Source: Flavobacteriales bacterium (GTDB lineage: Bacteria > Bacteroidota > Bacteroidia > Flavobacteriales_D > Sanyastnellaceae). Taken from it: a DNA stretch of 39,886 bases. Below the pieces are notes generated by a model. The model searched no databases and had not been told where the DNA came from. It saw nothing but the letters and a program-made list of their open reading frames with translations. The stretch spans positions 1 to 39,886 of the forward strand of contig CANIAA010000004.1 in the NCBI GenBank assembly GCA_947465255.1. Direction: 5' to 3'. The position numbers and the translations under genes were made by a program. Of the stretch, positions 14,474-36,944 are shown in pieces (positions within the stretch are counted from its first letter, which is position 1; each line of letters opens with the position of its first letter).

Positions 14474-14490
14474 TAAACAGCGTAGAGATA

Positions 14491-14522
14491 AAAACCGCCT
14501 CTTAGGGGGGCGGTTTTTTTTT
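14491..14522 (+). terminator. Rho-independent terminator
   Basis: AAAACCGCC...GGCGGTTTTTTTTT after the stop at 14473. Confidence 0.85.
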
Positions 14523-14726
14523 GTGCTCATGCAATCTTTCGAGCGCTTGTATAGTCTCACTATTATGAGTTGGAAAAGAATACGTGATTTTGATGCTGCG
14601 TATCAATAATCCGATTATTTTCACAGCCCATCAATAGTAGGAAGTTTGTTTAATTACGCCTCCCATTCTGTTGAAAATGCGTTTGCAATCACCAATAACC
14701 GCCACGAAATACCTGCTAATCTTGAC

Positions 14727-17700
14727 ATGGTGAAGAGAAATAGTCTCATACAGCTGCCGCCGACAATCTTATTCAGATTTGTCGTAATTGCATTTCTGGC
14801 AATTATGCTAAACCTAACCAATAGCATGCAGGCGCAGTCGATATTGGGGGGAAGCATCACGTGGCAGCGATTGGCGGGAGATCAATACAATATCTCACTC
14901 AACCTGTATTATGATTGTTATGGCTCGATTGTTATTGGTCAATATGACGCCGATCCAGCTCCCGACACTATCAACCAATTTCAGAACTCCATCGACATAG
15001 CATTTATTCCGGACGCATCATGCGCCGGACTTTTTTCATTTACGGCGAATGCGGATAGCACGGAAACAGAAGAGATTTCGGATTTGTGCTCAATTGGCGC
15101 TTTCAATGAGTTGGAGAACAGTACGTGCAACAACCCGGCGAGTTTTTCCCTGGGACTAAAGAAGGTTACTTACGAAACACAGGTTACGCTGGCTGCCGGT
15201 TGCACTTGGAAAGTGGTATACAACAATCAGGACTGGAGTTTCTACTTTGAAAACATGGACGCAGTTTTCTTGCAAGACGCGTACATTTATTCAGAGATTA
15301 ACACAGCGGTTGCGCCAGTTGGAACTGTTGATATTGTGCCGGATGTGAATGGTGATTACATCTCGTATTTCTGTGCACAACCTACAGTTACTGCTGCGGA
15401 GCAACATCAAGTTCAATTGCAGCTGCCTGCCGGAGTCACAGCGACCTATTCACTAGGTGTGCCCTTGACAACGGGAGCCAATGTTGCCTTTTCGTCACCT
15501 ACACCCGGCTTCAGTGTGCCTGCCACAAATGATGGTTCCGGCGCCATATTAACAATCGATTCGAATACCGGACTCGTCAGTTGGTTGCCACCCGTGCTTC
15601 CGGTAGGTGCGCCCACCATGGTTTATATCGTTCCGATAGATATTGAGCTTTCAAACGGAGGAGTGAATGTTGGAACTATTCACTACAATTTGACACTAGC
15701 TGTTCGTGACTGTTCTACCACGCCAACCACATTTGACTCTCCTCCGGTAACTGCTCAAGGGCCAGATGTCACGTACACCGATAATCCTGGCGTGACCAAC
15801 GACCTGGTTGAAGTATGCGCGGGAGATTTGCTTTCGTTTACGGTGCAGGCTTCGAATGTCAATGCATCGCGGAGCATCGAAATCACCTACGAGTTTGATC
15901 CGCCGGCGCCCAGTTTAGCGGGGCTCGTAATGACCCAAACTTCCTTTACGCCCGGTATTGCCACGTTTGAATTACAGACCACGCCGGCAATGGCGAGTAG
16001 TACGCCTTTTACCCTGCGTTTAACCGCTCAGGATAATGCTTGTCCTACAGCAACCAATCAGGTAATTGAGATAGATATTGCTATTCGCCCGAATGTGAAC
16101 ATTACGTCATTAGACGAAGTGATTTGTGTAGGAGACGTTTACACCCTAACGGCAGAAGGCGCCGGATCAACCAATCAGTATACCTGGGAAGCATTACCCG
16201 GAGGTGATGCTACGCCGGCTCTTACACAAAACGCAACCACTCAAAACGTTTCGCCTGACAGTACTACGACGTATCGCGTGAGCACACCACTTGCAACGGG
16301 ATCATGCGTGAGTGAAGATTTTGTAACCGTAGGTGTTTCGCTTCATCGATTACAACTTGATGCAGTAAACGAGAGTTGTGGTACACTTGGTTCGATTGAT
16401 TTAACTCCGCTCGGTGCCTCTAACCCTGCTGATTTGACCTATGCGTGGGTTTTCGGAGCGGGAGGGGCAATAGCTACAGGTGAAGAAGTAAACCAAGATC
16501 CAACGGGTTTAGAAGGATCAACGACAGGTATTACTTACACAGTGACGGTAACGGATTTGCTAAATGTCTGCTCAGCGAGTAACAGCGCAGTCATTACAGA
16601 AACCACAGGTCCGGAGTTTGTCTTCCTCAATAACCCTGTGCCCGTTCAAGTGTGTGCAGGCTCGAATGCTACAATTAACTTCGATTTTACTGCCGGAGTT
16701 CCGCCTTTTGATATTTGGCTGAACCCCAATTTATCAGGGCCTCCGGATGTTGTTGGGGTTTCTGACCCCTACAACTATGTTGTACCAAGCGGCACGGTTG
16801 ATTTTACCGTTACGGTTTATCAGATTCGAGATGGGAGTGGTTGCCCTTCTGATCCGAGCACAGTACCTCAGTCCATTGATGTGGTAGTTCGTCCTTTGGT
16901 AACCACTGACATTGTTTCACCATCAAGTGCATTGTGCCTTGGTGATGCACTGGAGTTGACGTTAGATCATGATGCAGCCGGCACCTATGCCGTTACTTAC
17001 ACGATTGGAACAGGAGCTCCAACAACGGTGAACGTGCCCGACAATGGAACCATAGATGTGGCCGACCCCATTGCGGCGGGATCGGTTACTTATGATGTTG
17101 AATCGGTGGCCTACACCACCGGCCTGCCTTGCCCGAGTTCAGATGCTGCAAACGCATCGATTATCGTGGTAACAAACGCTAAGCCTACGGCAGCGTTACC
17201 CAACACACCTATTACTGTCTGTTCCGGTGCAACTATAACTGTTCCGATAACACTCACGGGTGATGGTCCTTGGGTAATTACCTATGAATTGGATGGAGTA
17301 GTTCAACCGGTATTGAACATTCCTGATGCGCCGGCAAGTCCGAATTATGTGTACAACTGGAGTCCGTCAGTGGCAGGGGAGTATTGTATTACCAATGTGA
17401 GTGACGCTAATTGCAGCAATTCATTATCAGCTACACCGGAATGTGTGGACGTGGTCATAAACCAATTGCCTACCCTTGTTTCGTATACGATTAATTCGGA
17501 AGACGTAACACAGAGTCCGGTGAATGTTTGTGCCGGTGATGTAATTTCGATTGATGTGGAGGTGACGCCTGCGGGTAATAACTATTCGTATGAGTTTGTT
17601 GTCATTGGCAATTCAGCAATTACACTTGGCCCATTTGCGAATCAATCGGAGCTCTTCAATACAACCCTCACTGCTACATCGAATTTTCAGCTCGAGCTTG

Positions 17701-20700
17701 ACAATGTTTTCTTAACTACAGCCAGCACGTGTATAACACCCATTAATCAGACGATTGCCATCAATGTGCCGGCTGAAATTGCGGTTACACCTGCTACCCC
17801 CGTCTGCGATGCATTGGTTTCCGAAACCTATACGGTTGCATATACTATAAGTCCGGGAACCGCACCATTCGATGAGGCTCCGGGTGGAGTTGGTGGTTCA
17901 TTCTCCACTATCGCAGGTCCTACCGGTCCGTTAAACATTTTCACAACAGACCCACTGCCTTCAGGTGGAACCGGCGGAAGTTGGACGATTAATGATTCGT
18001 TCGACTGCAATCAGGTAACGGTTACCAACGCAGGCTTTACTTGTCCCGTGCTTTCGAACGCAGGAGCGATGAGTACAACCCCCATCACAGAATGTTCACC
18101 ACCGTCAGCTCCGGCTCTTGTAACCGGCGTGCAGAATTTAGCTCCGCCATCGACCTATAATCTGGACAACAATGATGCGGTCATGTTCATCCTGCACTCA
18201 GCCCCCGGAAACGTGTTAGGTTCAGAAATAGCCCGTTCGTGCGGTGATGCCGGTTTTGGTGATGCCAATACGCCTTTGGCGTTTGGCGCGGTCAGCGGAC
18301 CCGGAGTAGTGGTCAGCGGAACAACCTACTACATCTCATGCGTAGTTGGAAATGATGATGGCACCGGATGTGTGGATGACACCAATCCAAACATTCAGTT
18401 CTCATCGAATGCCCAGCTGGTGTCGTGGTACATTGCCGGAACAGCCAGTCTCACAGCGCCGTTAGGGGTTGACAATTGTGAGGGTAGCACAACACCGCTG
18501 CAAATTGACGTCGACTTTACAGGTAATGGTCCGTGGACATTTGTATACAGCATTGCAGGAACCAACCAACCGGCCATTGTAGTTCCGGCTGGAAATAACC
18601 CGTATACGTTCACGGCTACTCAAACCGGGCTATTCCGGTTAGAATCGCTCACCAATAGTTCGCAAAACTGCCTGGGTACCGTGAGCGGAACCGCTGATAT
18701 TGTTATCCGCCCAATTCCGCAATTGGCCGGTTTGACCCCTGCCACTGTTTGCAGTGGTGCAACACATTGCTTTGAATTGGATTTTACAGCCGGTACAGGA
18801 CCGTTTGATATTGTAATCGATATTCCTAATGTTGGTCCCAATGAAACAGTGACGGGCGCGCTGGATCTGGATACCTATTGTGCGGATGTTTCCGGTAGTT
18901 ATACAATACTCTCAATTACCGACGCTTTCGGGTGCGTCAATAACAATGTGAATATCGGAGCAACGTTGAGTTCATACCCCACCCTGGCCGTTGCATGGGA
19001 TGATGTTGGTGTCGATTATTGTCCGAATGAAGTTACTTCAACTAATCCACTCACCACCACATTTACCGCTGTGGGCGACGGGCCATTTACATTGAATATT
19101 GTCGGACCTGATCCGGCGATTCCTCCAACGATAACGAATAATGTTGTTACGCTCAATGGTCCCGGTACATACTCAATAGTGAGTATTGAGGATGTACATG
19201 GATGTTTGAATACTAATCAGCAAGATTTTATTGCAACCGAATTGCCTGTGCCGCTTGCCGCTGCAGGCCCTGACGTTGAGCAGTGTGCCGGTGTAGCGTT
19301 CCAGTTGGGAACACCGGCTGTTGGCGGGAACACCTATTCCTGGACACCTTCGGCAGGTATTGCAACAGGTGAGGCTGATGAGGCACAACCTGTGTTGAAC
19401 ATCATCAATACTCTGAATAGTCCTTATACGTACACGTTGTCAGTTACGAATGGTGATTGCTCAAGCACCGATGAAGTTGTAGTGACGATACACCCGAATC
19501 CGAGTGTCATACTTTCTGCTCTGAACAACGACCTTGTGCTCTGCTATGATGGTCCGAATAGTGAGACCACCATCACCGCCACACCAACGAGTGGTGGTGT
19601 TTATGATTATGCATGGACTTCCTCAACCTCTATATCGGGTGTTTTGAATACTGCATCAATCAGTATTGATCCAACGGCAGATGAGCAGTTCGAGGTCACG
19701 ATTTCTGAAGACTTTGGTGCGGTAACTTGCAGTGCGGTAGAGACGATCGACATTGAGGTGAATGATTTGATGGAGCTCATCAACTTGAACTTTCCGGCAG
19801 ATATGTGTTCGGGTTCGTGCATTGAAGTAGAATCGGATTGGTACACTGTGGTTGGCAGTTCGGGTGCTATCACCCAAACCGTTGATGGTAATCCGATAAC
19901 TTCTCCCATTTGCTGGGACGTACCTGAGGATCATACGCTGTTAGTGGTGGACTCTGATGGTTGCGAGGCAGAGGCGAACTTTACGATTGATGTGCGCGAC
20001 CCGGAAACCGTTTTATTCAGCGTGAATGAGCCGTATCCGTTTTGCGCTCGCGATACGGATGGTGTTGTTCAGGGTAATAATTTGGATGCTTCGCAATACA
20101 CGTTAAGTCAGAATAATACGATAATAGCCATTGCAGACCAATCGCCATTCGTTTTCACAGACCTTGGTGTTGGAGCGTATGATATTGAGGTGAATATTTT
20201 ATTGACTTCAAATCAGGTATGCACCGGGCAAGATTCATTCGAAATTCTAGCAGATTCAGACAGCATTGATATTTCCGTACAAACACCTCAGCCGGTGTGT
20301 GCCAATTCTGAAATGTCTTTCGATGCTGAAGTTTCTTACTTCAACAGTCCGGTTGGTGGTGGTTTCGTAACGTATTGGAATGCTTGCCCCGAATCTGTTG
20401 GTTGCCTGGTAGGTGCGACAAATGAAGCTTCCGGTCAAGAGCTAACGATTACCATAAGCCAGGATACAACATTGTATCTGTATGCTCTTGATGTAATTGG
20501 TTGTTCTTCTGATACAATTTCCGTAGATGGTAATATTTCATCTGATGTTTTGTTGTTTGTGCAAAACGGACTGGACACCTTGGAGACTTGTCAATATGAG
20601 TGCGAAGAATTGTCGGCACTCGCAGCCGGAGGAACAGGAGCCTTGACCATAGAGTGGTACAGACTCGACAATATACCGGATTTGACGCCCACGCTGGTGG

Positions 20701-21620
20701 CTTCCTCGGATACAACAACGGAGTGTTTTCTGTTTGATGCTATTTACGAGATAGTAGCTTCGGATGGACAGTGCCCCGGCACGAGGGATACCCTTTGGGT
20801 CACGGTTCACGACACCCCTGAGCCGATTATGGACGCGGAAGGTTCGGGTGGTTGTTATCCGGACACCATCGGCTTGTCGTACATCCTACTCGATACAAAT
20901 TACAATGACTTAAGCACGTGTGTTTGGTCGTTGGGTAATGGGTTTCAGTTGTCGTATTGCGGTGACACATCTGCTGTTTACAATGCGCCTGGAACTTTTT
21001 ATCCTTCGCTTACCATTACTTCTGAGTTTGGTTGTTCTGCCTCGGATACAGTGTCGTCGCCGATTGTTATTCGCAATTATCCGGAGGTTGATTTTACCTG
21101 GGATCCACAGCCGGTTGATATTCTTAATCGCAGGGTTCAATTCCAAAATCTAACGGCGGGTGCCGACTCTATCTATTGGAACTTCTACAATGCCGGTGAG
21201 AGTTTTGCGCCCAATCCTGTGTGGACGTTTCCTGATATTGAGACTACCAATCCTTACGTGGTGTGCTTAACGGCAGGTAATGAGTATGGCTGTCTGGACA
21301 CCTTGTGTCAAGATGTTTTTGTCGAGAATATTCTGCAGGTTTTTATACCCAACACCTTCACTCCCGATGGAGACGGCCTGAACGATGTGTTTATGCCGGT
21401 CGTAAACGGTGAGTTTCAGGGCAGTCTTCGTTTTTGGGTATTTAATCGCTGGGGCGATACCGTCTTTTACACCGAAGAGGTCGGTAAGGCTTGGACGGGA
21501 GGGTATGACGGCGCTTCCTATTACATACAGGACGGCTATTATATGTGGCGGGTAGAAGTCGACTCGCTGGAGACCGGTAAAACGAAGATATATGAGGGCA
21601 ATGTCTTCATCATTCGATAG
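14727..21620 (+). CDS. Giant T9SS type B (gliding motility-associated C-terminal domain) protein with many Ig/PKD-like repeats
   Basis: About 2297 aa from the likely ATG at 14727 (MVKRNSLIQLPPTILFRFVVIAFLAIMLNLTNSMQAQS). Repeated VCxG...GDGPWxxxYxxxG modules. CTD IPNTFTPDGDGLNDVFMPV...LRFWVFNRWGDTVFYTEEVGKAWTGGYDG...DGYYMWRVEV...YEGNVFIIR. Confidence 0.88.
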   Translation: MVKRNSLIQLPPTILFRFVVIAFLAIMLNLTNSMQAQSILGGSITWQRLAGDQYNISLNLYYDCYGSIVIGQYDADPAPDTINQFQNSIDIAFIPDASCAGLFSFTANADSTETEEISDLCSIGAFNELENSTCNNPASFSLGLKKVTYETQVTLAAGCTWKVVYNNQDWSFYFENMDAVFLQDAYIYSEINTAVAPVGTVDIVPDVNGDYISYFCAQPTVTAAEQHQVQLQLPAGVTATYSLGVPLTTGANVAFSSPTPGFSVPATNDGSGAILTIDSNTGLVSWLPPVLPVGAPTMVYIVPIDIELSNGGVNVGTIHYNLTLAVRDCSTTPTTFDSPPVTAQGPDVTYTDNPGVTNDLVEVCAGDLLSFTVQASNVNASRSIEITYEFDPPAPSLAGLVMTQTSFTPGIATFELQTTPAMASSTPFTLRLTAQDNACPTATNQVIEIDIAIRPNVNITSLDEVICVGDVYTLTAEGAGSTNQYTWEALPGGDATPALTQNATTQNVSPDSTTTYRVSTPLATGSCVSEDFVTVGVSLHRLQLDAVNESCGTLGSIDLTPLGASNPADLTYAWVFGAGGAIATGEEVNQDPTGLEGSTTGITYTVTVTDLLNVCSASNSAVITETTGPEFVFLNNPVPVQVCAGSNATINFDFTAGVPPFDIWLNPNLSGPPDVVGVSDPYNYVVPSGTVDFTVTVYQIRDGSGCPSDPSTVPQSIDVVVRPLVTTDIVSPSSALCLGDALELTLDHDAAGTYAVTYTIGTGAPTTVNVPDNGTIDVADPIAAGSVTYDVESVAYTTGLPCPSSDAANASIIVVTNAKPTAALPNTPITVCSGATITVPITLTGDGPWVITYELDGVVQPVLNIPDAPASPNYVYNWSPSVAGEYCITNVSDANCSNSLSATPECVDVVINQLPTLVSYTINSEDVTQSPVNVCAGDVISIDVEVTPAGNNYSYEFVVIGNSAITLGPFANQSELFNTTLTATSNFQLELDNVFLTTASTCITPINQTIAINVPAEIAVTPATPVCDALVSETYTVAYTISPGTAPFDEAPGGVGGSFSTIAGPTGPLNIFTTDPLPSGGTGGSWTINDSFDCNQVTVTNAGFTCPVLSNAGAMSTTPITECSPPSAPALVTGVQNLAPPSTYNLDNNDAVMFILHSAPGNVLGSEIARSCGDAGFGDANTPLAFGAVSGPGVVVSGTTYYISCVVGNDDGTGCVDDTNPNIQFSSNAQLVSWYIAGTASLTAPLGVDNCEGSTTPLQIDVDFTGNGPWTFVYSIAGTNQPAIVVPAGNNPYTFTATQTGLFRLESLTNSSQNCLGTVSGTADIVIRPIPQLAGLTPATVCSGATHCFELDFTAGTGPFDIVIDIPNVGPNETVTGALDLDTYCADVSGSYTILSITDAFGCVNNNVNIGATLSSYPTLAVAWDDVGVDYCPNEVTSTNPLTTTFTAVGDGPFTLNIVGPDPAIPPTITNNVVTLNGPGTYSIVSIEDVHGCLNTNQQDFIATELPVPLAAAGPDVEQCAGVAFQLGTPAVGGNTYSWTPSAGIATGEADEAQPVLNIINTLNSPYTYTLSVTNGDCSSTDEVVVTIHPNPSVILSALNNDLVLCYDGPNSETTITATPTSGGVYDYAWTSSTSISGVLNTASISIDPTADEQFEVTISEDFGAVTCSAVETIDIEVNDLMELINLNFPADMCSGSCIEVESDWYTVVGSSGAITQTVDGNPITSPICWDVPEDHTLLVVDSDGCEAEANFTIDVRDPETVLFSVNEPYPFCARDTDGVVQGNNLDASQYTLSQNNTIIAIADQSPFVFTDLGVGAYDIEVNILLTSNQVCTGQDSFEILADSDSIDISVQTPQPVCANSEMSFDAEVSYFNSPVGGGFVTYWNACPESVGCLVGATNEASGQELTITISQDTTLYLYALDVIGCSSDTISVDGNISSDVLLFVQNGLDTLETCQYECEELSALAAGGTGALTIEWYRLDNIPDLTPTLVASSDTTTECFLFDAIYEIVASDGQCPGTRDTLWVTVHDTPEPIMDAEGSGGCYPDTIGLSYILLDTNYNDLSTCVWSLGNGFQLSYCGDTSAVYNAPGTFYPSLTITSEFGCSASDTVSSPIVIRNYPEVDFTWDPQPVDILNRRVQFQNLTAGADSIYWNFYNAGESFAPNPVWTFPDIETTNPYVVCLTAGNEYGCLDTLCQDVFVENILQVFIPNTFTPDGDGLNDVFMPVVNGEFQGSLRFWVFNRWGDTVFYTEEVGKAWTGGYDGASYYIQDGYYMWRVEVDSLETGKTKIYEGNVFIIR

Positions 21621-21678
21621 CACGAACTGTCATAGTAGCTTTCGCCAACTGCGCTTTTAAAATACAGGGCCGGCATGC

Positions 21679-21707
21679 TTGAGGCTTGATCCTTCCTTTT
21701 ATATTTG
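21679..21707 (+). promoter_or_regulatory. Putative promoter TTG-N18-TATATTTG for the NIDO-like T9SS protein
   Basis: TTG at 21679-21681, TATATTTG at 21700-21707, start codon at 21759. Confidence 0.5.
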
Positions 21708-21758
21708 CAATCCTTGTACTTTAACCTTGAGGAAAAATTAGTCTTACCCATCTTACTT

Positions 21759-24700
21759 ATGAAGAGATATTTACTTCTTACTTGCCTTTTGTCGGTAATC
21801 TGTTTGACGGCAGGTGCTCAGGAGCATTATTACACAGCTCCTTACAATGCCCGTTATTCCCGCAATATGACGGAGGAGCAGCTCTACAGCAAGCCCTTTT
21901 TGCAAAAGATGTCGAAGCAAGACTGGGTTCGTTTTTCCAAGGATCCACGATTCGACGCAGATCGAGTTGCTCGACTAAAGACCGACTGGAAAAGAGAGCG
22001 TCAGCAAAGCCGCAGCCAGCTTAAAACGACACAAACTTCGGGGGAGTCAAATTGTTACTGGGTTGAACCGACTAGTGCATATACGCACCCCAACCCGATA
22101 CAATGGCCCGGAAGTCCGGGGAATAGCACAGATAATTTCAGCGCACCTATCAACCTCGGTTGGAACTTCAATTTCTTCGGAACGAATTACAATCAGGTCG
22201 TTATTACAACGAAGGGAACCGTCGTGCTGGGTAATACCGGATACATTGATTTTACTCCATCAGCATTTCCCGACCCGCTGGGTACTGAAACCAACCAGCA
22301 GTATAACCACCTTGCCGGTTTCTGGTCAGACTTCGACTTCGGTGCGAGCGGTGAAATCTATTACCTCTTAACTCCTGAGGCATTGTATATCAACTATATC
22401 GACGTTGGGTATTGGCCGAATTTCGACGATAAAACCAATTCGTTTCAAATGATCATTACTCCGGATGGTAGCAACGTGATTGGCGGAGGAAATAACGTTC
22501 AGTTCGTATATCTCGATATGCAGTGGGTGAACAGTCAAATTAGCGGTGCTACGGGTGGTTGCGATGCGAACAATAACTTCGCTATTGTTGGAGCCGACCG
22601 CTCTTCCGGCTCGCAGCACTATGCGTTCGGTCGTTTCAATCTTTGTAATTCTACAGCATGGGATGGCCCTTATGGTGTGCAGGAAGCGAATGAAGATGGT
22701 GTTGACTGGCTTGACGGTCGAGTGATTGAGTTCAATACCGGCGTAACAAACTTTGTTGCCAATCAACCACCCGTTGTGGTGGGCGAAGCATGCGACACCA
22801 TTACCATGTGTGTCGGAGAATCATTTGATTTTAACCTGGCATTCACCAGCCCGGAATCAAACCAGACAACGAGCATCACCTATACCCCGATACCGGGTTT
22901 CACTGCTACGTCAACCACAGGAAATGCAGCTGTTTTGAATAACGCTACGTTTACCGCTACGGCAGCCAACATCGGAGCCAATACAGTAACGATTACAGCA
23001 ACAGACAGCGGCATACCCGCCGCCACTACAACCAAGACCTATACGTTTTTGGTCGAGGATGTAGAGGCACCGCCGATTGAAATTACGGGGGTTCTCAATA
23101 TATGTGCGGGGCAGGTTACAGAGCTAACTGCCACGGATGGTTTTGATTCGTATTCGTGGAGCAATGGTTCATCCGGACAGTCGGCAGAAGTTTCACAACC
23201 GGGTACAGTTACCGTTGTGGGTGCGTTTGGCTTCTGCTCATCTGTTGCAACGGCTGAAATTGACGTAACACCTTATTTCATACCACAGCTCCAAGGCGGT
23301 AATGCCGCCATTGAAATTTGTCCCGGTATAGACACGGTAGTATGTGTGTTGGGTGATTATGCCGAGTATCAATGGCAGATTTCACCAGGTTATGATGGTG
23401 AGTTTGTGCCCGGCACACCCCTCGACGAAGCGTGCGCACAGGTAACCGGAAACGTCAATGGTAACTACGAAATTTTGGTAACGGATGAGGCCGGTTGCCA
23501 AGGATTCAATATTAAGTTGGTTACGACATCTCCATCAACACCTTGCCCGACGAATGACGATAACAACGGAATTCGTTGCGATGGCTTGCAGGAACTTGAC
23601 TTCTGCGGATACTCGGTTCCACCTGAAGACAACTTGATAATCTATGCCCTGAGTACGAATCAAAATGGTTGGCAAGGTTCGTTCATTAATATTTACGTTT
23701 ACCCTGCAGACGGAGGCCCGGTAGAAGAGTACTTCCTCACGTCGTTTGCTGCATTGACGTTGTATGACGACATTTTGATTGGTGCAGGCGATAGCGTTGC
23801 GATAGAATATTTCGCTAATGGGAATAACTTCCAAGGCAATTCACTTTGGGTGATTAACTGCGGGCAGACGTCACCCACTATCATTCCGGCGCCTCTCACA
23901 ACAGGACTTGTTTGGTCGGGAGCATCGACGTGTGTCGCAACCGACTTGGATGGAACATGGACTGTAAATGGTCCCGGAGGTTGGACGTTCTCAGATGCGT
24001 CACAAATGACAACTACATGGACCCCCACTCAGTATGGCGTATATGAGTTGTGTTTCAGCAATGCCAATTGTGCATTCGACTATTGCTATGACATTGAATA
24101 CGCTCAAGCACCCAACATCACGATTACCCCCGGACTTCCTATTGCTTTGTGTGATGCGGAAACAGCAGAGCAGTCGGTAGTGGTGAATGACCCTTCGGGC
24201 AATGGAACCATTTCGTGGTCGGGTCCTGGCGTAACCCCTTCTACCGATGGTCTTTCTGCGGTGATGGGACCCTACAACGACTACACGAACGGGACAGTAA
24301 CTGCTAGCATTACGAATGCTTGCGGAACATTTAGCGACACCTTCAACGTGTCTTATCAACCCGACGTGCCAAATCCGTCGATGCAAGATGTACCGCTGTG
24401 TCAAAATGGAAGCGTGACACTTGATCCCATACCATCCAACCAGGATAACGCAGAATTGCAGTATGACTGGAGTCCGGGCAATGAAAGCGGAGCCACGTTG
24501 AATGTTACTACCCCGGGTGTTTACACGGTTGTGGTATCGAACGACTGTGATGAGTCCGCCCCTGTTTCGGTGAACGTAACAGGAGTGGTTGCGGCAACGG
24601 TTACCTCTGCGCCGGCAGCTTCTGTGCTGGAGTGTAATGCGGATGAAGTGACCTTGACGGTGCTGTATGCAGATGCCAATAACTATAGTGCCTCCTGGAA

Positions 24701-25355
24701 TGGTCCGGTGGACTCTTCAACAGGAACAGTAGCAGCCGATCAGGATGGTCAGTATTGCTATACAGTAACGGATAATTTCGGGTGTAATTCTGAAACAGAA
24801 GGATGCGTGACAGTGAATATTTCCGGGGCACCCAACACCTCGTCGGGTAGTAGTGACTTGTTAGCACTTTGTCCGCGCGAGTGTAAAAATCTGGAGGTTA
24901 TTTCTGACGCTGAAGACGCGTCTGTAACATGGACGACAAGCTGCAGTGGCTTTGTTATTGGTACTTCGGGAGCAGCACTTGATTATTGTGCGGACAACGT
25001 GCCATTCAGTTGCTTAGGTGAGGTTGTAACGCTTACGGCCAATATCAGTAACGGCTGTGGAACAGCTCAAGCCACGTGGCAAATTCAATCGAATGCGTGC
25101 GAAGTGAAAATACCGAACGTATTCACGCCAAACGGAGCACAAGGAAATGATAGGTTTGAAATAGAAGGATTGGAGAAATACAATGGTGCCGAGTTACAGG
25201 TATTCAATCGATGGGGAGATGTCGTGTATGAAAGTACGAACTATCGAAATGACTGGCGTGCAACCGACATGAGTGAAGGAACCTATTGGTATATTCTTAA
25301 GTTACCCTACGGAATCAAAACAGAGTACAAAGGATCTGTGCAGATTTTGCGCTAA
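21759..25355 (+). CDS. T9SS type B cargo with N-terminal nidogen (NIDO)-like domain and Ig-like repeats
   Basis: Signal [25 protein letters not shown]-like [48 protein letters not shown]...[66 protein letters not shown]...[11 protein letters not shown]...YKGSVQILR. Confidence 0.88.
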
Positions 25356-26920: not shown

Positions 26921-29900
26921 ATGAAGCAGTTTTTACTGTCAACTTTGTTCTGTGTGTTTGCCTCAATATTAGGCTTGGCACAGGCTCCCGTGAATGATGT
27001 GTGTGCGAATGCGATACCTATTACCGTAAATGGAGGTTACATCAGTTGTAACAATTCCAATACAGTGACTAATGCAGCCAACCCCAGTTGTGGAGGTACA
27101 ACCGGTATCAAAGACATTTGGTATAAGTTCGTTTACACAGGTGGAACAGTGGTTATCGAAACACAACTAGGAACCAATACCGATACGCGAATCGCACTTT
27201 ATAGTGCTTGTGGCGGAACACAGTTAGGCTGCAACGACGACTTCGGTGGAACTTACCGCTCTTCGTTGTCGTTCACGTGCGCTCAACTAACAGCAGGCAA
27301 CACCTATTATATTCAGGCCGGTGGTTATAATGCTGTAATAGGAACCTTTACTATGCAGGTTACTGCTAGTGGTATTTTGGGATGTACAGATCCACAGGCA
27401 ACTAACTACACCGCTTGTGCCACTCAGAACAATGGAACATGCACGTATCCGGTGCTCACATCACAGTTCAACTATGCACCAACAGGCACCAATTGTTTGA
27501 ACGTTCAGTATACCAACACAAGCTCAGGAAATATCACGGGCTACAATTGGTCATTTCCCGGTGGTAATCCATCATCGTCAACCGCTCAAAACCCGGTTGT
27601 GACTTATCCGGCAGGAGGAACTTATTCAGCCACATTAACAGTAACGGATGCGGCCAGCTCAAACACGGCAACCAATAACAATGTCCTGGTTACGACAGGA
27701 AGCATTGTAACCGTTGATATTACTCCTGATGCGAACCCAACACAAACTTCATGGAAAGTTTTTGACGTGAACAACGTCGTTGTTGCACAAGGAACTAGTA
27801 ATGATGCTACTTTCTGCATAAATAGTACCTGCCATCGATTTGAAATCTATGACTCTGCTGGTAATGGTCTTACAGGAACAGGTAACTACAAGGTTTATTT
27901 GAATGGTGCATTGGTCTCTCAAGGTGCTCAATTCGGTACTCGCGATATTCGCTATGTAAATTGTCCGGAGGGGACCAGTTGCAATGATCCATTGAATGCT
28001 GTTCTCGGATTGAATGAAGTTCCTTTCGACAACTCATGGTATGTTTTCACTCCATCAGTAAATGGTCAATACAGAATTACCACCTGCGGCTACGCAGCTT
28101 GCGACACGCGTATTTGGGTATATGACTACTGTATCATGGCCAATTTCGACAACACGAACGAAGCAACTTACACCTATAATGACGACTTCTGTGGTGTTCA
28201 AGCACAGGCAGATGTTTTCATGACAGGTGGCAACACGTATTATGTGCGTGTTGGAAGTGGCGGAGCATGCGCAGGAAGCAGCTACGATGTGTTCTTTGAA
28301 TATGTCGGCCCTGTGACAGGTTGCATGGATATTTTGGCGTGTAACTACCAGCCACTAGCTAGCGCAGCAGGTCCGTGTTACTACAACGGTGATCCGAACT
28401 GCTCTGGCTTGGGACCTGACCTTTTCATGGATCAGCCTGCACTGTTCAGCTCGTTGACGTCAACCACCCTAACCAATGGCGATGCATGTTTGGTTAATGA
28501 AGGTTGTTTGCAGAGCAATGCCGGTACACGTCAAATTCTGCGATTCACTACACGCATTGCGAACATCGGAACGCAGGATTATTTCATCGGCGTGCCGAAT
28601 GCTTCGAATTCACAGTTCACCTTCGACCCATGCCACAATCACTACCACTATGCGGGTTACGCGGAGTATTTGCTCTTCGACTCGAATGGTAATTTGATGC
28701 CGAACATTGGCTTCAAGAATGGTTTCTGCGTACTCGACTTGTCTTGTCCGGCAGGAATTTCAGCTCAATACTCTTGCGGAAACATGGGTATTACTGCGGG
28801 TTGTGCCGATATCTACTCTTCAAGCTTGACTTGTCAGTGGATTGATGTGACGGGAGTACCTGCAGGAACGTATTATCTGGTGATTCGCACAAACTGGGAT
28901 CAGGATCCTGACCAGAATGGTCGTTATGAGTTGCGCTACGATAACAACTATGCTCAGGTATGCATATCGTTTGGCCGTGATGCCAACAACAACATCATCA
29001 ACTTTACGAAAAACATTGCCACTTGTCCTGCTGTAGAAGACTGCTTGGGTATTCCTTTCGGTGATGCACAAACTGACTGCGCAGGAAACTGCCCAGGAAC
29101 AGTATTGAGTGGTGATGTAAACAACGATGGTTACCTTACTCCACAAGATGAGCACTTGTATGGTGAAGCTGCTGTAAACGGTGGCATTGCGGTGAGTGCT
29201 TGTACAGACTTAAATGCCGATGGTGAAATCACGATTGCGGATGCATCTTACCTAGGCCAGTGTATTCACCAGCAACAAGACGCAGGCGTTCCGCCACTTC
29301 AATACGAATCATGTGGTTGGGATCCGGAAATTCAAGATCCTGAAAACGTTACAATCGGTCTTGCTAACTTGAACACAACGAATTCAACATTCGACATTGT
29401 AGTGAGCAATCCACAGAATGAATTGTGGGCGCTTCAGTTTGACATCAGCGGTGCGGTTATAACAGGTGTTCAGAATCTATTGCCGACCACTACTTGGGGT
29501 GCACACATTCACTTCGATGGAAACACAATTGCTGTAACGAGCGAAGGAAATACGAAAGTTCCTACATACACCAATGCAACAGCTATCCTTCGAGTGACCT
29601 ATTCGTCATTGAGTGGTAGCACTGTTTGTATTAGCAACATTATCGATGCATTGAACGACTTCAATCACAACGTACTTGCTACGATTGGTTCGTGTGTGGG
29701 TGTTGCTTCACAGGTGGTTGCAAACTTTACAGCTTCAGCCACTAGTGTTTGCCAAGGAGCTTCAGTAACCTATACCAACACTTCATCAGGAGCAACTTCG
29801 TATAGTTGGTCTTTCCCCGGCGGAACTCCTTCAACCAGTTCCGCAGCAAACCCTGTAGTTGTGTATAGCACTCCAGGTACTTATAACGTAACGCTTACAG

Positions 29901-32482
29901 CATCGAATGCGAGTTTTTCAGATAATGAAGTGAGAAACGGATTTATCATCGTTGGACAAAGCGCAACGTGGTATCGCGATGCAGATAACGACGGTTATGG
30001 TAATGCCGGTAATACTGTTTCGGCTTGCACGGCTCCTGCCGGTTATATTGGTGTTGCCGGTGACTGCAACGACAACTCATCTGCCGTTCGTCCGAATGCG
30101 ACAGAGGTTTGTAACAATATTGACGACAACTGTGTTGGCGGAATAGATGAAGGATTTGATGTCGACAATGATGGATTTACCACTTGCGAAGGCGATTGCA
30201 ACGACAACAGTTCTATCGTATTTCCGGGTGCATTCGAAATTTGTAACACGGCTGATGAAGATTGCGATGGAAGTATCGACGAAGGTTATGATGCGGATAA
30301 TGACGGTTATACCTCTTGCGGTGGTGACTGCAACGACAACAATGGCGCTATCCGCCCGAATGCGGTTGAGACATGTAACACCGCTGATGATGATTGCGAT
30401 GGTTTGGTAGACGAAGGTTTCGATGCAGACAATGACGGCTACACCTCATGTGGTGGTGACTGTAATGACAATAACGCTGCTATTCGTCCGAATGCAACGG
30501 AAGTCTGCAATGGCGTCGATGATAACTGTAATGCATCTATCGACGAAGGCTTCGACGTGGATGGTGATGGATTCACCACTTGCGAAGGCGACTGTAACGA
30601 CAATAACATCAACATCAACCCGGAGGCTTCTGAGGTGTGTTCAAACTTTACCGACGACAACTGTTCGGGCGTGGTGAACGAGGGTTGTTGCAATGTGACG
30701 CTCAGCTCATCAGCGACTAGCACAACATGTGCGGCCATTGCCAATGGATCGATTAACTTGACGGTATCGAATGGCACTGCACCGTATAGCTATGTGTGGA
30801 GCAATGGAGCAACTACGGAAGACATCAGTAATCTGGCAGCCGGCACATATTCGGTAACGGTGACTGATTTTTACGGTTGCACAGCTTCAAGATCTGTTTC
30901 TGTTACCAATGGCACCGGAGGGGCACCTGCCACTCCAACGGCTATCAACGGAGCGTATGGCGTATGCCGCAGTTCAACAGGGAACATATTTACCACTCCT
31001 TCAGTAACAGGAGCAACATCTTATCAGTGGACACTTCCTACGGGTGCTACAGGTAGCTCTACTACCAATAGCATAACGTTGAGCTTTAGCTCTACTTACA
31101 ATACGGGTAACTTAAGCGTGCGTGCTATTGGTCCTTGCGGAACAAGCGCTGCATTTACGCGCTCTGTTGTTGCTAATACAGCAGTGCCGGCTTCACCTGC
31201 ATCGATTACAGGTGCGTCGTCAGGAGTATGCGCAGGTTCTACGCAGACGTATACATGCGCTGCGGTAACAGGGGCTACAAGCTATCAATGGACTGCACCA
31301 ACCAATGCTACGGTTGTATCGGGACAGGGAACTCAAACAGTGACTGTTTCTTATGCTTCTAACTTCGGCACAAGCGGCTCTTTGAGCGTTCGTTCACAGA
31401 ATTGTTTTGGGTTGAGCACCGCTCGTACGTTAACCGTGTACAGCATACCTGCTACGCCTGGTGCCATTAGCGGCACAGCAGTGAACGTGTGTCCCGGATC
31501 TGTTCTTACTTATACGATTGCCGGAGTTCCCGGAGCAACCAGTTATGTGTGGACAGGCCCTGCTAATACAACAATTTCTTCGGGTCAGGGAACGACATCT
31601 ATCTCGTTGACTATGGGCGCCGCGTTCACCGGTGGACAAGTTACAGTGCGTGCTGTCAGCAGCTGCGGCCAGAGTGCACAGCGTACTTTCTCATTGTCTG
31701 TTAACCCTTCAGCACCATCTGCCATAGTGGGTCAGACTTCGAATCTGTGCGGAGGAGGACAATACACGTATTCGATTTCACCGGTTAGCGGAGCAACCAG
31801 TTATCTGTGGACCGTGCCAACCGGTTGCACAATTGTTACTAACAGCGGAACTTCTATTGTAATGAATGTGCCGAGTACATTTACTACAGGAACCCTCAGT
31901 GTTCGAGCATACAACATGTGTAATGGAAGCGCTATTCGAACAGCATCACTTACACGTTTGCCGTCAACACCTGCCAGCATCGCGGGTCCGGTCAGTGTAT
32001 GTCCGAACCAAGTGGGAGTGAATTTCACAACACCTGCAGTAAGCGGTGTTACGCAGTCATGGACGGTTCCAACAGGTGTAACACTAACGGCAGGTCAGGG
32101 CACCACAGGCATTACGTGCACATGGGGCACCGCAGCAGGCAGTGTATCTGTGCGAGGAGTCAACGCTTGCGGTCAATCAAGCGCTCGTAGTTTGTCTGTT
32201 TCTCTTGCTACATGCATAGAAGACACAGGCAGTTCTTTGATACGTGGCTTCGAATTGGAAGCATACCCGAATCCAAGCAACGGATCTTTCGTGATTCGAG
32301 CCAATGAAGCGGGTGATTACTATTTAATGAATAGTCTTGGTCAAGTTATAGAATTGGTGAAATTGAATGCAGCGAACAATTTCCGATATGAAATCGGTGG
32401 GTTGAGTGCAGGTATCTATTTCATCAACGGAAATGTCAACGGAACTGCTATTACAGAGCGAGTAGTGGTAACCGGAAACTGA
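26921..32482 (+). CDS. T9SS type A cargo: lysyl-oxidase-like domain, dockerin-like EF-hand pair, possible cohesin-like domain, MopE-type metal-binding repeats, SprB-like and Ig-like repeats
   Basis: Signal [21 protein letters not shown] from the ATG at 26921. [20 protein letters not shown]...[13 protein letters not shown]...[37 protein letters not shown] (LOX-like). [27 protein letters not shown] (dockerin-like). [35 protein letters not shown]...[23 protein letters not shown]. Confidence 0.88.
29969..30688 (+). repeat. Five MopE-type putative metal-binding repeats, mostly 44 aa (132 bp) period
   Basis: Units such as [44 protein letters not shown] repeated in tandem; the first unit is longer and the last is one residue longer. 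Confidence 0.85.
30930..32215 (+). repeat. Tandem Ig/PKD-like protein repeats
   Basis: Recurring pattern C.gst.tyt...[13 protein letters not shown]...GQGT..I.v.....F..G.lSVRa.n.CG across about 1.3 kb; the exact 15-mer GGAGCAACCAGTTAT occurs in two of the units. Confidence 0.75.
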
Positions 32483-32504: not shown

Positions 32505-32534
32505 AAGGGCCGCTCAGCGGCCCTTTTCTTTTTT
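32505..32534. terminator. Terminator between convergent genes (T9SS protein and TolC-like gene)
   Basis: AAGGGCCGC-TCA-GCGGCCCTT followed by TTCTTTTTT. Confidence 0.85.
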
Positions 32535-33963
32535 ACAATGTTCCTAGTAAATAAAGAATCTCGATTTCTTGCAGTTTCAGTTGTGTTGAAATTTCACTTT
32601 CCTGGACACGCAAATCGAATAATTGTTGCTCGCGCGTATTGATGAGAAACACGCTGCTTTCGCCCGAGTTGAATTTCTCACGTTCTGCATCGAGCAGGCG
32701 TTGCATGTTGCTTACGTTGCTTGAGACGTTTGTGAGCTGAAGTCGCAGAAGTTCAAGTTGACGAATAGCGGCGAGAGCTTTATTTCGAATTACCGTTGTT
32801 TTCTGCAAGGCCTCTAACTCGAGTTCTTCGATTTTGATACGTGTAATCCCCAGTTCCCCTTTTGCTTTTCGCATCAGAATGGGCCAAGAAATTTGTGCGC
32901 CCCACTTGTAGTTATTCAGCATCAATATGTCGCTAGCGGGTTCTGTAGCTTCACTAAGCGCGTTGTACTGAAGGTTCACAACAGGCTTCATCAACTCTTT
33001 CTTCCAACGCTCTTCTGCGCGCAGTTGCTCGAGCATGGGTGTAAATTTCAGGAGCTGCGGATTGGTTGAAGCCAAGCTGTTGGTTCTGTCGGCGAGTACG
33101 TTTGTATTGATCAATGCCTCATCGAATAAGATTTCCTTTTGAGGTATTGTGTTTTTGATTGATTCCAAGGGAATGAAATTCAGTTCATTTTCCTCCCAAA
33201 GGTGTGATGTTAAGTCGAATGATTCTTTGGCCCACTTGGCCTCGGCTGATTGATACTTTTGTTTTCTGTTCTGAACCTGTATAGCTGTTTCCAGGGTATC
33301 AACAGAAGCGATATCGCCAGCCAGAAAACGGTTTTTTGTGTCTGTCAATCGCTGCTCTGCAATGGCAACCCACTCACGGTGAATGTCGAGCACTTTTCTG
33401 CTCATCCACCATTCCCAATATTGCTTGTAGGCATCGTAGCGCAAATCCTGTTTCAGCCGATTTTGTTCAATGACAGAATAGCGTTGATACGCTTCAGCCT
33501 GGCGCATTTCTGTGCGGCTTTTATCTGTAATTAAACCCTGACCTAAAGGCACTGCAATACCGGCGTTGATCAGACCACCGTTTGGCGTTGTTTCCTCTGG
33601 GCTGACGTAAGTGCCATTGGCATTTTCGAAGCTCGATTTTAGAATGAGGGGTGCACGAAGAGGCACATCTACGCCAACATAGGTTTGGTTATAGTATTCA
33701 GTGGACTTGAAGAATTTGTTTTGATGCGTGGCAGAAATCTTCGGGTCGAAGGCACCTTTTGCCTTGGTAATTTCTTGTTGTCCTTTTTCTACGCTCAAGT
33801 CGGCCATGCGCAATGCGGGGTGGTTATTGAGCATCACCTTGAACGCATCATAGGTGAGTACCTCTTCGCTTTGAGCGTGAATCTTCCAGCTGAAAGAAGC
33901 CGACACCAGGAGGGCAATCAGTTTTATGTGAACTGAATGATTATTTCTTCTCCTTGACGTCAT
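32533..33963 (-). CDS. TolC-family outer membrane efflux protein
   Basis: MTSRRRNNHSVHIKLIALLVSASFSWKIHAQSEEVLTYDAFKVMLNNHPALRMADLSVEKGQQEI...; two OEP repeats; C-terminal NSGESSVFLINTREQQLFDLRVQESEISTQLKLQEIEILYLLGTL. Start chosen at 33963 to reduce overlap with the upstream gene. Confidence 0.88.
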   Translation of the reverse strand: MTSRRRNNHSVHIKLIALLVSASFSWKIHAQSEEVLTYDAFKVMLNNHPALRMADLSVEKGQQEITKAKGAFDPKISATHQNKFFKSTEYYNQTYVGVDVPLRAPLILKSSFENANGTYVSPEETTPNGGLINAGIAVPLGQGLITDKSRTEMRQAEAYQRYSVIEQNRLKQDLRYDAYKQYWEWWMSRKVLDIHREWVAIAEQRLTDTKNRFLAGDIASVDTLETAIQVQNRKQKYQSAEAKWAKESFDLTSHLWEENELNFIPLESIKNTIPQKEILFDEALINTNVLADRTNSLASTNPQLLKFTPMLEQLRAEERWKKELMKPVVNLQYNALSEATEPASDILMLNNYKWGAQISWPILMRKAKGELGITRIKIEELELEALQKTTVIRNKALAAIRQLELLRLQLTNVSSNVSNMQRLLDAEREKFNSGESSVFLINTREQQLFDLRVQESEISTQLKLQEIEILYLLGTL

Positions 33964-35284
33964 CGGCTTTGTAGTAGTTGGGTGGGAATCCATTGAACTG
34001 TCGCCATAGTTCGTAGCCTAGTGGCACATCATTCAGCAAGGCCATACCATGGGCACCGGCGCCCACGCGAATGCCGGAAGGCCAAGGAACGTCATTAGGG
34101 TCAGGCGCAACGAGTATACGATACTCGCCTTGGCTATTTGTGAAGTTATCGATGGCGACTACAACACCTCCGTACGTTCCGGCAGAGGCACCTGGCCAGC
34201 CGCTGAAAACGAAAGCAGGCCAACCATCAAAAATGAATCGCACTTTTTGGCCTTTGGAGAGCAAGGGATAATCAATGGGTTTGACCATGAGCTCTACGGC
34301 AAGCTCATAATTGGCGGGCATGAGGCTGACAATTTCTTCACCATCTTTAATCGTTTCACCAACCCCTGTTTTGATCGCGCGTGTTATATATCCATCGGCC
34401 GGTGATGTGATGAAATAGAAGCCGCTTCGCTGGGTGTAACCGGCAAACTGGCTTTGAAGCTTTGTCACTTGTGCCTCGGTATCATACAACATACTCATGG
34501 TCGAGAACTTGTCGCTTTCTGCCTTGGAAACTTTATCGCGGTAATCTTGTGAAATTGTATTCAGTTCGGTGCGAGCATTGGTGAGTTCTTGTCGAGCAAT
34601 GAGTAGTTTGTTTTCTGTTTCCATTTGTTTCGCCCGGGCGTTTTGATAAGCCACCTCGCGCTGCTCAAGTTCAGTTTCTGATTTCAGTCCTTTTTCGAAC
34701 AGTGATTTGAATCGCTCATACTGGTCACGGGCAATCACCGCGTTACCTTTCACCACATTAAAGTCCATGCTGTCGCTCTGAACTTTTAGTATCGACTGCT
34801 TGATTTTGAGTTCCTGCTGACTTCGCTTCAGTTTTGCGCTTTCGTTGAGAGCGTCAATTTGTCGATCCAGCGCTGCGACTTTTTGCATGTATCCCGATAC
34901 GCTTGATTCTTTGCTCTTTATTTGATCTTCGACGTTAATGAGTAGATTCGGATCGAAGTAGTCGTCTTTGATTTCGGAGATGCGCATAATTGTATCACCG
35001 GTTTTGACTAAATCACCCTCGCGCACGTACCATTGTTCTATTTTACCTGGAATGATGGTTTGAATCGCTTGAGGGCGTTGGTCGGGACGGAGCGATGTAA
35101 GTCGGCCGTTTCCGCTAATGTTTTGAGTCCAGGGCAAGCATAGTAGCACAATGAGAACGCCGAGCAGGACAAAGAGCGAACGCTTCAGCACTCGGTTGTT
35201 TTTAGTGGTGGAAAGCTTGCGAAACGAGGTAAAATCGTCTTGCTTGATTTTTCCGTTTATGGCTGAGTCCGAAAGTTCGAGCAT
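33941..35284 (-). CDS. HlyD-family periplasmic adaptor subunit
   Basis: Single N-terminal TM, SGNGRLTSLRPDQRPQAIQTIIPGKIEQWYVREGDLVKTGDTIMRI, long coiled coil, then FYFITSPADGYITRAIKTGVGETIKDGEEIVSLMP. Confidence 0.9.
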   Translation of the reverse strand: MLELSDSAINGKIKQDDFTSFRKLSTTKNNRVLKRSLFVLLGVLIVLLCLPWTQNISGNGRLTSLRPDQRPQAIQTIIPGKIEQWYVREGDLVKTGDTIMRISEIKDDYFDPNLLINVEDQIKSKESSVSGYMQKVAALDRQIDALNESAKLKRSQQELKIKQSILKVQSDSMDFNVVKGNAVIARDQYERFKSLFEKGLKSETELEQREVAYQNARAKQMETENKLLIARQELTNARTELNTISQDYRDKVSKAESDKFSTMSMLYDTEAQVTKLQSQFAGYTQRSGFYFITSPADGYITRAIKTGVGETIKDGEEIVSLMPANYELAVELMVKPIDYPLLSKGQKVRFIFDGWPAFVFSGWPGASAGTYGGVVVAIDNFTNSQGEYRILVAPDPNDVPWPSGIRVGAGAHGMALLNDVPLGYELWRQFNGFPPNYYKADDVKEKK

Positions 35285-35294
35285 GTGCGATAGT

Positions 35295-36944
35295 TTAAGC
35301 TTTTTGCATGGTTACGACTCTACCGGTCAATTGATGAACAGCCGGGTTGTTGCTGATGATTAAAATGGTCGCCTGCGGGAATTCGCGCAAAATGTTGTGA
35401 AGAATTTCCATGCGTTCATCGGGTAAGATTGCCTGAAGGTTGTCTTCCATTAAGATGAGGTGAGGGTTGCCAACGAGACAACGTGCGAGAACCAACTTGC
35501 GCAAGATTCCTCCCGATAAAATTTTTCCTTCCGGGTCAATCATTGTATGATAACCTTCCGGCATGTGTGTAATGCTGTCGTGCAATTTCACCAGTCGCGC
35601 CGCCTCCATCACTTGGTTTATATCGATGTGTTTTCTTCCGCAGGTAATGTTCTCCACGACGGTTCCTTTGAAGACCCCTTGATCGGCGAAGTTCTCTCCG
35701 GTGATTTCACGCAGCGTAACGAGGTCGATGTTTTCCAGAGGCAATCCATTCACGGTGATGCTGCCCTGAAACCCCGCGAAATATCCCGTGAGTAGTTTCA
35801 TCAGGAGCGTTTTACCACTGCCGTTTCCACCCGCCACACATACTCGTTCTCCCGGCATGATTTCCAGATTGAAATTGTGGATGACGGGGGAGTTGGCGTC
35901 TGAGAACGTGTAGGATAGATTGTCAATTTTTACGTGAATGCCTTGTTTTTTCAAGGTTTCCCGGACGTCAATACCACCTTCGCGTTCCAGTTGAATATCG
36001 GTAATGCTGCCGATTTTATCGAGTGCTGTGAGAACGTCGTACACAGTGCTCATGTTGAGAATGACTTTTTCTACGTTGCCGATAATCATCAGAATTACGA
36101 TTTCGGCAGCTACAAATTGCCCGATGTTGATTTGTCCGTTGATGACCAGAATACTTCCGGCGATAATGAGGCTTGCGGCAAGAATGATTTTGAAAAGAAC
36201 AAGAACCTTGTACTGCGTAACAAGAATAGAGAAGTGGCGTTTACGGGCATCGAGGTACTTCGAGGCGTGATAATCGGTTTGCTCGAGAGGCATCGACGTG
36301 ATGCCGCTTAGTTTAAACGTAGTGAATGTGCGAGAGAGTTCTTCGAGCCAATGGGCTACAGCAAATTTGTGCTTGCTTTCTTCGAGACTGCTGTCAAGCC
36401 CTTCTTTACCGGTGAGTTTGAAGATGGCCGCAATGAGCAGTATGAGAATGAGACCAAGGAGAATGAAGAGGGGGTGGTAGAAAGAGAGAAGGATTAGTCC
36501 GAAAATAATCTGAATGGCTGCTGTGGAGAAATCGAGAAGAAGCTTGGATATTCCTTTCTGTACGGTCATGATTTCGAAGAAGCGATTCATGACCTCCGGG
36601 AAGTACTTGGATTTCACAGAGTCGAAGGAAGCGCGCGGCAGTCGATAGGCAAAGTCGAAGGAAGACCTCACAAACAAGCGCTGTTCGATTGCTTCGGTGA
36701 TGGCCATTTGGCGCAGTTGAAGAAGTCCGTTGAAGAACACACCCAGTATCACGAAAACAACGAGTACTATCCAGGAGGCACGTAACTCACCCGCCTGAAG
36801 CAGGTTGATAATGGCTTGAATGCCGAGGGGTAGGGTAAGATTGACCATCCCCTGAAACAGGGCGAAGATGTAGACGTTCCTTATTTCGGATCGTTCAGAT
36901 TTTACCAAACGCCAAAGGCGTTGCAAAGGACTAATTTGACTCAT
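35295..36944 (-). CDS. ABC exporter, fused permease-ATPase, type I secretion-like, no C39 peptidase domain, atypical NBD
   Basis: N-terminal TM region; Walker A GGNGSGKT; LSGGILRKLVLARCLVGNPHLILMED. Stop is 10 nt from the HlyD start. Confidence 0.88.
   Translation of the reverse strand: MSQISPLQRLWRLVKSERSEIRNVYIFALFQGMVNLTLPLGIQAIINLLQAGELRASWIVLVVFVILGVFFNGLLQLRQMAITEAIEQRLFVRSSFDFAYRLPRASFDSVKSKYFPEVMNRFFEIMTVQKGISKLLLDFSTAAIQIIFGLILLSFYHPLFILLGLILILLIAAIFKLTGKEGLDSSLEESKHKFAVAHWLEELSRTFTTFKLSGITSMPLEQTDYHASKYLDARKRHFSILVTQYKVLVLFKIILAASLIIAGSILVINGQINIGQFVAAEIVILMIIGNVEKVILNMSTVYDVLTALDKIGSITDIQLEREGGIDVRETLKKQGIHVKIDNLSYTFSDANSPVIHNFNLEIMPGERVCVAGGNGSGKTLLMKLLTGYFAGFQGSITVNGLPLENIDLVTLREITGENFADQGVFKGTVVENITCGRKHIDINQVMEAARLVKLHDSITHMPEGYHTMIDPEGKILSGGILRKLVLARCLVGNPHLILMEDNLQAILPDERMEILHNILREFPQATILIISNNPAVHQLTGRVVTMQKA

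Follow-up and report, generated by a model that had tools for sequence, protein, structure and literature searches.

Lysyl oxidase is the copper enzyme used by animals to cross-link collagen, and the reason why bacteria keep lysyl oxidases is a standing question. The functions of prokaryotic lysyl oxidase (LOX) homologs have been called enigmatic, and the native role of HTU-LOX, the enzyme of Haloterrigena turkmenica, cryptic (PMC6452851). The window, i.e., the whole 39,886-nucleotide stretch of Flavobacteriales DNA analyzed here, raises the same question through one large gene. Judging by sequence and predicted fold, the core of the giant secreted protein that it encodes is a genuine LOX domain with all catalytic residues intact. 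The family to which this domain belongs offers a tractable route to the question since it is near-universal in one lineage, is under strong selection, has a known export route (as predicted from its sorting tail), and is locked to a docking-type module.

The features of the gene are collected in Table 1. The open reading frame at 26921–32482 of the forward strand is single and unbroken and yields 1853 amino acids from its ATG. An alternative GTG located 126 bases 5′ of the ATG extends the frame; the signal peptide arises from the ATG. Every peptide quoted in the original prediction, which was made from the letters of the DNA, lies in this frame, and the codons that it gave for the cofactor lysine (28715–28717) and tyrosine (28814–28816), as well as the 33-residue gap between them, are exact and in frame. 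The MopE-type repeats are “copper-binding” by their Pfam name, yet they read as calcium-type DxDxDG repeats, and no copper role is drawn from them.

Table 1. Position of the LOX gene and of the modules and residues recognized in its product.
Feature	Position in the window	Strand	Basis
Gene encoding the modular surface protein (1853 aa)	26921..32482	+	ATG start
Signal peptide (22 residues)	26921..26986	+	Sequence inspection
Galactose-binding-like, T9SS-associated domain PF23759	26993..27328	+	Profile match, E = 1.6e-11
PKD domain PF18911	27497..27679	+	Pfam profile
Two conserved unnamed beta modules before LOX, residues 261–475	27701..28345	+	Segment profiles, 93–101 of 104 LOX proteins
Cys-containing linker ending in CYY, immediately 5′ of LOX	28319..28411	+	Profile in 102 of 104 LOX proteins
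Lysyl oxidase catalytic domain	28412..29056	+	PF01186 match at 28508–28975
Predicted copper ligands H572, H574, and H576 (HNHYH)	28634..28648	+	Invariant, 95/95
K599, predicted LTQ lysine	28715..28717	+	Invariant, 95/95
Y632, predicted LTQ tyrosine	28814..28816	+	Invariant, 95/95
Dockerin-like double EF-hand module, immediately 3′ of LOX	29099..29281	+	Weak profile match, two modeled helices
Cohesin-like nine-stranded beta sandwich	29327..29704	+	Fold matches, pLDDT 89
PKD domain PF00801	29723..29914	+	Pfam profile
Five MopE-type metal-binding repeats PF11617	29966..30670 (limits approximate)	+	Pfam profile
PKD_6 repeat array PF19408, six stretches	30938..32218 (limits approximate)	+	Pfam profile
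T9SS type A C-terminal sorting domain PF18962/TIGR04183	32264..32470	+	Pfam and NCBIfam profiles

A lysyl-oxidase-like domain had been proposed for this gene, and both profile and structure searches bore the proposal out. Residues 530–685 matched PF01186 with E = 4.8e-31 (108.4 bits against a cut-off of 20.4), and phmmer reached human LOXL2 (5ZE3) at E = 1.1e-21, with HxHxH, Lys, and Tyr sharing aligned columns. The AlphaFold2 model of the domain, built on an alignment of 19 relatives, was of moderate confidence (pLDDT 76, pTM 0.74). When it was compared with the Protein Data Bank by Foldseek, the sole matches at E ≤ 0.001 were the two chains of LOXL2 5ZE3 (E = 3.1e-10, probability 1.00, TM 0.68 on the query, 27% identity in the fold alignment). 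The match is far beyond chance. The strong likeness to animal LOX motifs might be taken to suggest that the gene was recently acquired from an animal or another eukaryote or, alternatively, that the genome bin is contaminated. We regard both as extremely improbable: the domain lies inside one uninterrupted bacterial frame with a type IX secretion system (T9SS) tail, the fold alignment with LOXL2 shows only 27% identity, LOX sequences group by bacterial family, mostly as single clades, and contigs of the same genus repeat the gene order downstream of the LOX gene. A mobile origin was also considered and rejected; there was no phage match and no viral fold match, and one distant plasmid match was found, in Gemmatirosa.

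Conservation of the catalytic residues was assessed in 95 aligned canonical LOX domains, all distinct, taken from the same family and from other Bacteroidota. The copper ligands H572, H574, and H576 and the two residues predicted to form lysine tyrosylquinone (LTQ), K599 and Y632, were invariant in all 95, in agreement with the original prediction, and so were D630, W640, and D642; the same invariance had been seen earlier in 52 rows. The catalytic domain of LOXL2 contains five disulfides, C573-C625, C579-C695, C657-C673, C663-C685, and C732-C746 (PMC9180022). Counterparts were found for all ten of these cysteines (C523, C529, C571, C603, C609, C619, C628, C638, C681, and C702), each kept in 91 to 95 of the 95 aligned domains, their pairing being predicted. 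Six were assigned by alignment with LOXL2, C523 and C529 by a spacing of six identical to that of C573 and C579, and C681 and C702 were matched to C732 and C746 by order and position rather than by direct alignment.

Two differences from the animal enzymes bear on whether the domain is catalytic. In LOXL2, H623 and H652, which lie outside the copper triad, raise the yield of LTQ, and mutants at these positions contain <50% LTQ (PMC9694262). The alignment places D569 and F598 of the 1853-aa protein at these positions, so that the first histidine of the animal copper talon (LOX H289, LOXL2 H623) is not present. This histidine is reported to be missing from bacterial, fungal, and amoebozoan LOX, with evidence cited that the residue is dispensable (PMC4448552). 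Since it is absent in other bacteria and cited as dispensable, the first talon histidine is not a defining feature of bacterial LOX. The distance between the LTQ lysine and tyrosine is by itself not decisive, because the two residues are already 16.6 Å apart in the LOXL2 precursor (PMC9694262).

A second, divergent LOX lineage was detected across the class Bacteroidia as weak PF01186 matches (E of ~1e-4 to 1e-11), mostly in proteins of roughly 600 to 1600 amino acids. The ten aligned proteins of this lineage (from L195–L206) keep H-x-x-H-x-H-x-H, the lysine in GxKxxFC, and the tyrosine in DxY, and their first histidine aligns with LOXL2 H623. As read from this alignment, the finding contradicts the 2015 statement that bacteria are without that histidine (PMC4448552).

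The replacement of both LTQ-promoting histidines of LOXL2 (PMC9694262) would be compatible with a structural or binding domain in which the LOX fold is kept and enzyme function lost. This is improbable, as the HHH-K-Y set is exact in 95/95 canonical rows and in the divergent second lineage, which is hard to explain without catalysis, and the HTU-LOX precedent is active. Overall, we consider it probable that the protein is an active, exported LTQ amine oxidase of the LOX family located at the cell surface.

Selection and distribution argue, in addition, for a working protein. In comparisons with the two closest relatives of the same genus, the LOX domain has a dN of 0.015 and a dS of 1.0 to 2.0 (omega ~0.01; dS is saturated for more distant relatives), and its dN is lower than that of the flanking parts on both sides. 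These values indicate strong purifying selection on the domain. PF01186 was found in 33 of 37 same-family genomes and, in a larger draw, in ~100 of 114, several of the 14 negatives being incomplete. At wider scales, 136 of 299 genomes from the order carried it, as did 97 of 395 from the class, both counts including the divergent second lineage, and 4 of 395 in an even draw from the phylum.

In the LOX tree, sequences cluster by bacterial family, and families mostly form single clades. The tree is unrooted relative to human LOXL2 owing to the excessive length of both outgroup branches. Over the sampled depth, this pattern looks like mostly vertical inheritance and not a recent gain. The family considered here splits into two supported LOX clades, of 29 and 33 rows (SH-aLRT 98 and 99), and the LOX gene is present two or three times in several genomes; the two deep clades point to an old duplication. 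Paralogs of the two clades lie convergently, ~4 to 6 kb apart, in some genomes of the family (L080, 6467–9490 and 13481–15985; L072, 6842–9898 and 16338–18062). A third, deeper LOX type occurs in the same family (L089, 199–2319; L091, 7421–9817); it has GHKNGFC, with a histidine at the LOXL2 H652 position, and the loop that follows its LTQ lysine is shortened. LOX genes from public metagenome-assembled genomes titled Chryseobacterium gleum (L039, L041, and L050) group with this uncultured Flavobacteriales family, and these titles look wrong.

Secretion by the T9SS, another element of the original prediction, agrees with a type A sorting tail at residues 1782–1850, recognized by both Pfam (E = 4.5e-10) and NCBIfam (E = 2e-9) profiles. 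The same tail profile finds 106 type A sorting tails in the genome bin from which the window comes. A search for SprA with TIGR04189 (the SprA_N profile matched nothing, controls included) gave no match in this bin, which is 77% complete and consists of 265 contigs, and revealed full-length or nearly full-length SprA in more complete genomes of the same genus and family. In some LOX proteins, a dockerin-like terminus replaces the T9SS tail: those from L063, L075, L078, L082, L077, and L072 end in a dockerin-like EF-hand pair closing with FG..C and have no T9SS sorting tail. This terminus is possibly another surface-anchoring or docking signal.

The surroundings of the LOX domain within the protein are fixed. 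According to segment profiles, the linker and the module that precede the domain are present in 101 to 102 of 104 LOX proteins, a set that includes some duplicate records of one genome, and the stretch that follows it is present in 97 to 103; the outer repeats vary, unlike the core. AlphaFold2 modeled residues 701–935 with a pLDDT of 89. The model had 26 matches in the Protein Data Bank at E ≤ 0.001, mostly cellulosome cohesins (best, 1.5e-5), and a Pfam search with the cohesin-like module gave no cohesin hit at E ≤ 5. The module between it and LOX, two helices in the model, scored 19.1 bits against Pfam dockerin type I PF00404, below the cut-off of 22.9 (E = 0.0016), and E = 0.012 against the CelS dockerin by phmmer. 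Because sequence profile matches are below the cut-off or absent, we name the modules dockerin-like and cohesin-like only. The fixed core thus consists of LOX followed directly by dockerin-like and cohesin-like modules. When a profile of the pair was run against six genomes, it was found only beside LOX, in one to two copies in four LOX carriers and zero in two LOX-lacking relatives, which makes the pair a specific companion of LOX in the genomes searched.

Genes for an outer membrane efflux protein, an HlyD-type protein, and an ABC exporter, a type I secretion-like set, adjoin the LOX gene on the reverse strand (32533–36944). The downstream order OEP, HlyD, ABC, PhoU, PHO4 is common only to the genus and therefore does not point to a partner gene. 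A comparison of the relatives’ neighborhoods revealed no conserved neighbor gene that would indicate a substrate. At 11204–25355, three more large T9SS proteins are encoded consecutively: one with lamin-tail/Calx-beta domains, one of 2324 amino acids with POM152-like Ig domains, and one nidogen-like. Lysine is very scarce in the first two of these (0.7% and 0.3%).

The 1853-aa protein itself contains only nine lysines. With the catalytic lysine excluded, the median lysine content of LOX proteins is 0.84%; for the remaining T9SS proteins encoded in these genomes, it is 1.86% (Mann-Whitney P = 5e-7, not controlled for length or relatedness). A genome-wide loss of lysine from the T9SS proteins of LOX carriers was unsupported (medians of 1.86% versus 2.28%, small sample). 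The low content means that the protein can contribute few lysines to cross-links, which argues against self-cross-linking, and it fits an enzyme that spares itself.

Type A tails of T9SS cargo are known to be removed on surface attachment. In the mechanism that we propose, the LOX protein would cross the inner membrane via its signal peptide, pass through the outer membrane via the T9SS, and likewise lose its type A tail as it is attached to the surface. Outside the cell, the domain would fold with the LOX disulfide set and bind copper through H572, H574, and H576; copper and oxygen would then turn Y632 and K599 into LTQ. The cofactor would oxidize primary amines, most likely the lysine side chains of nearby proteins, to aldehydes, with release of ammonia and hydrogen peroxide. 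Last, the aldehydes may cross-link surface or matrix proteins, the enzyme being positioned by the dockerin-like/cohesin-like pair and the adhesive repeats.

We tentatively favor cross-linking of surface or matrix proteins as the role of the enzyme because of the adhesive and docking-type modules in the LOX protein, while holding amine scavenging or peroxide production to be about as likely. HTU-LOX is active, promoted by copper, sensitive to BAPN, and acts on lysine-containing proteins with relaxed specificity (PMC6452851); given this relaxed specificity, cross-linking is just one role among several that are possible. Acting outside the cell, a functional amine oxidase could instead serve nutrition or chemical competition, by drawing ammonia from amines or amine-rich polymers or by producing hydrogen peroxide against competitors, and this reading is as tentative as cross-linking. 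HTU-LOX oxidizes taurine, glycine, polyamines, aminoglycosides, and polymyxin, and a modest contribution to nitrogen availability was proposed by the authors of that study (PMC6452851). The low lysine content of LOX proteins would also suit an enzyme whose substrates are foreign amines and which leaves itself untouched. On the other hand, LOX is a constant part of a long architecture of adhesive and docking type, suggestive of placement on a solid or polymeric target, and no amine uptake or aldehyde-metabolism genes were recognized near the LOX gene. The cross-linking role can be carried further, to a surface LOX in nearly every member of the family that is docked to partner proteins via its own dockerin-like/cohesin-like pair and whose aldehydes build covalent extracellular networks, a counterpart of animal matrix cross-linking; in this complete form, we consider it rather unlikely. 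If cross-linking is true, covalent lysine-based matrix building would be no animal specialty; if not, the protein would be a surface amine oxidase of possible value to biotechnology.

LOX from Bacteroidetes in which the catalytic residues are conserved were already published in 2015 (PMC4448552). In a collection of open-licence papers, nothing relevant was found that links LOX to type IX secretion, to dockerin, or to Flavobacteriales, which is no proof of absence. The following features appear to be unreported in that collection: the T9SS route, the fixed multidomain core and its docking-type pair, retention across the family along with an old duplication, and the second LOX lineage.

Among known systems, animal LOX (human LOX and LOXL2; 5ZE3) share with the present protein PF01186, HxHxH, the LTQ lysine and tyrosine, the ten cysteines, the fold (TM 0.68), and secretion. 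They differ in a lysine-tyrosine spacing of 35 to 36 residues versus 33 here, in the H623 and H652 equivalents, which are missing here, and in the company of the domain: SRCR repeats or a propeptide in animals and, here, the PKD, MopE, and dockerin/cohesin-like modules of a T9SS protein. Cellulosomal cohesins and dockerins (6KGF and 1DAQ) resemble our modules in the fold of the cohesin-like sandwich and in the double calcium-loop helices of the dockerin-like module, whereas here both modules follow the oxidase on one chain and sequence identity is ~10%. The closest experimentally tested precedent that we found is HTU-LOX, likewise a prokaryotic LOX (PMC6452851); unlike the present protein, it is archaeal, and T9SS or docking modules are not described for it. 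The bacterial LOX of Grau-Bové et al. (2015) belong to the same family and phylum, with the copper triad and LTQ residues conserved and predicted to be active and the first histidine absent (PMC4448552). Most prokaryotic LOX in that survey are lone domains with or without a signal peptide, while the proteins described here are multidomain, mostly of 700 to 2250 amino acids, with a fixed core, a T9SS or dockerin-like end, and family-wide retention.
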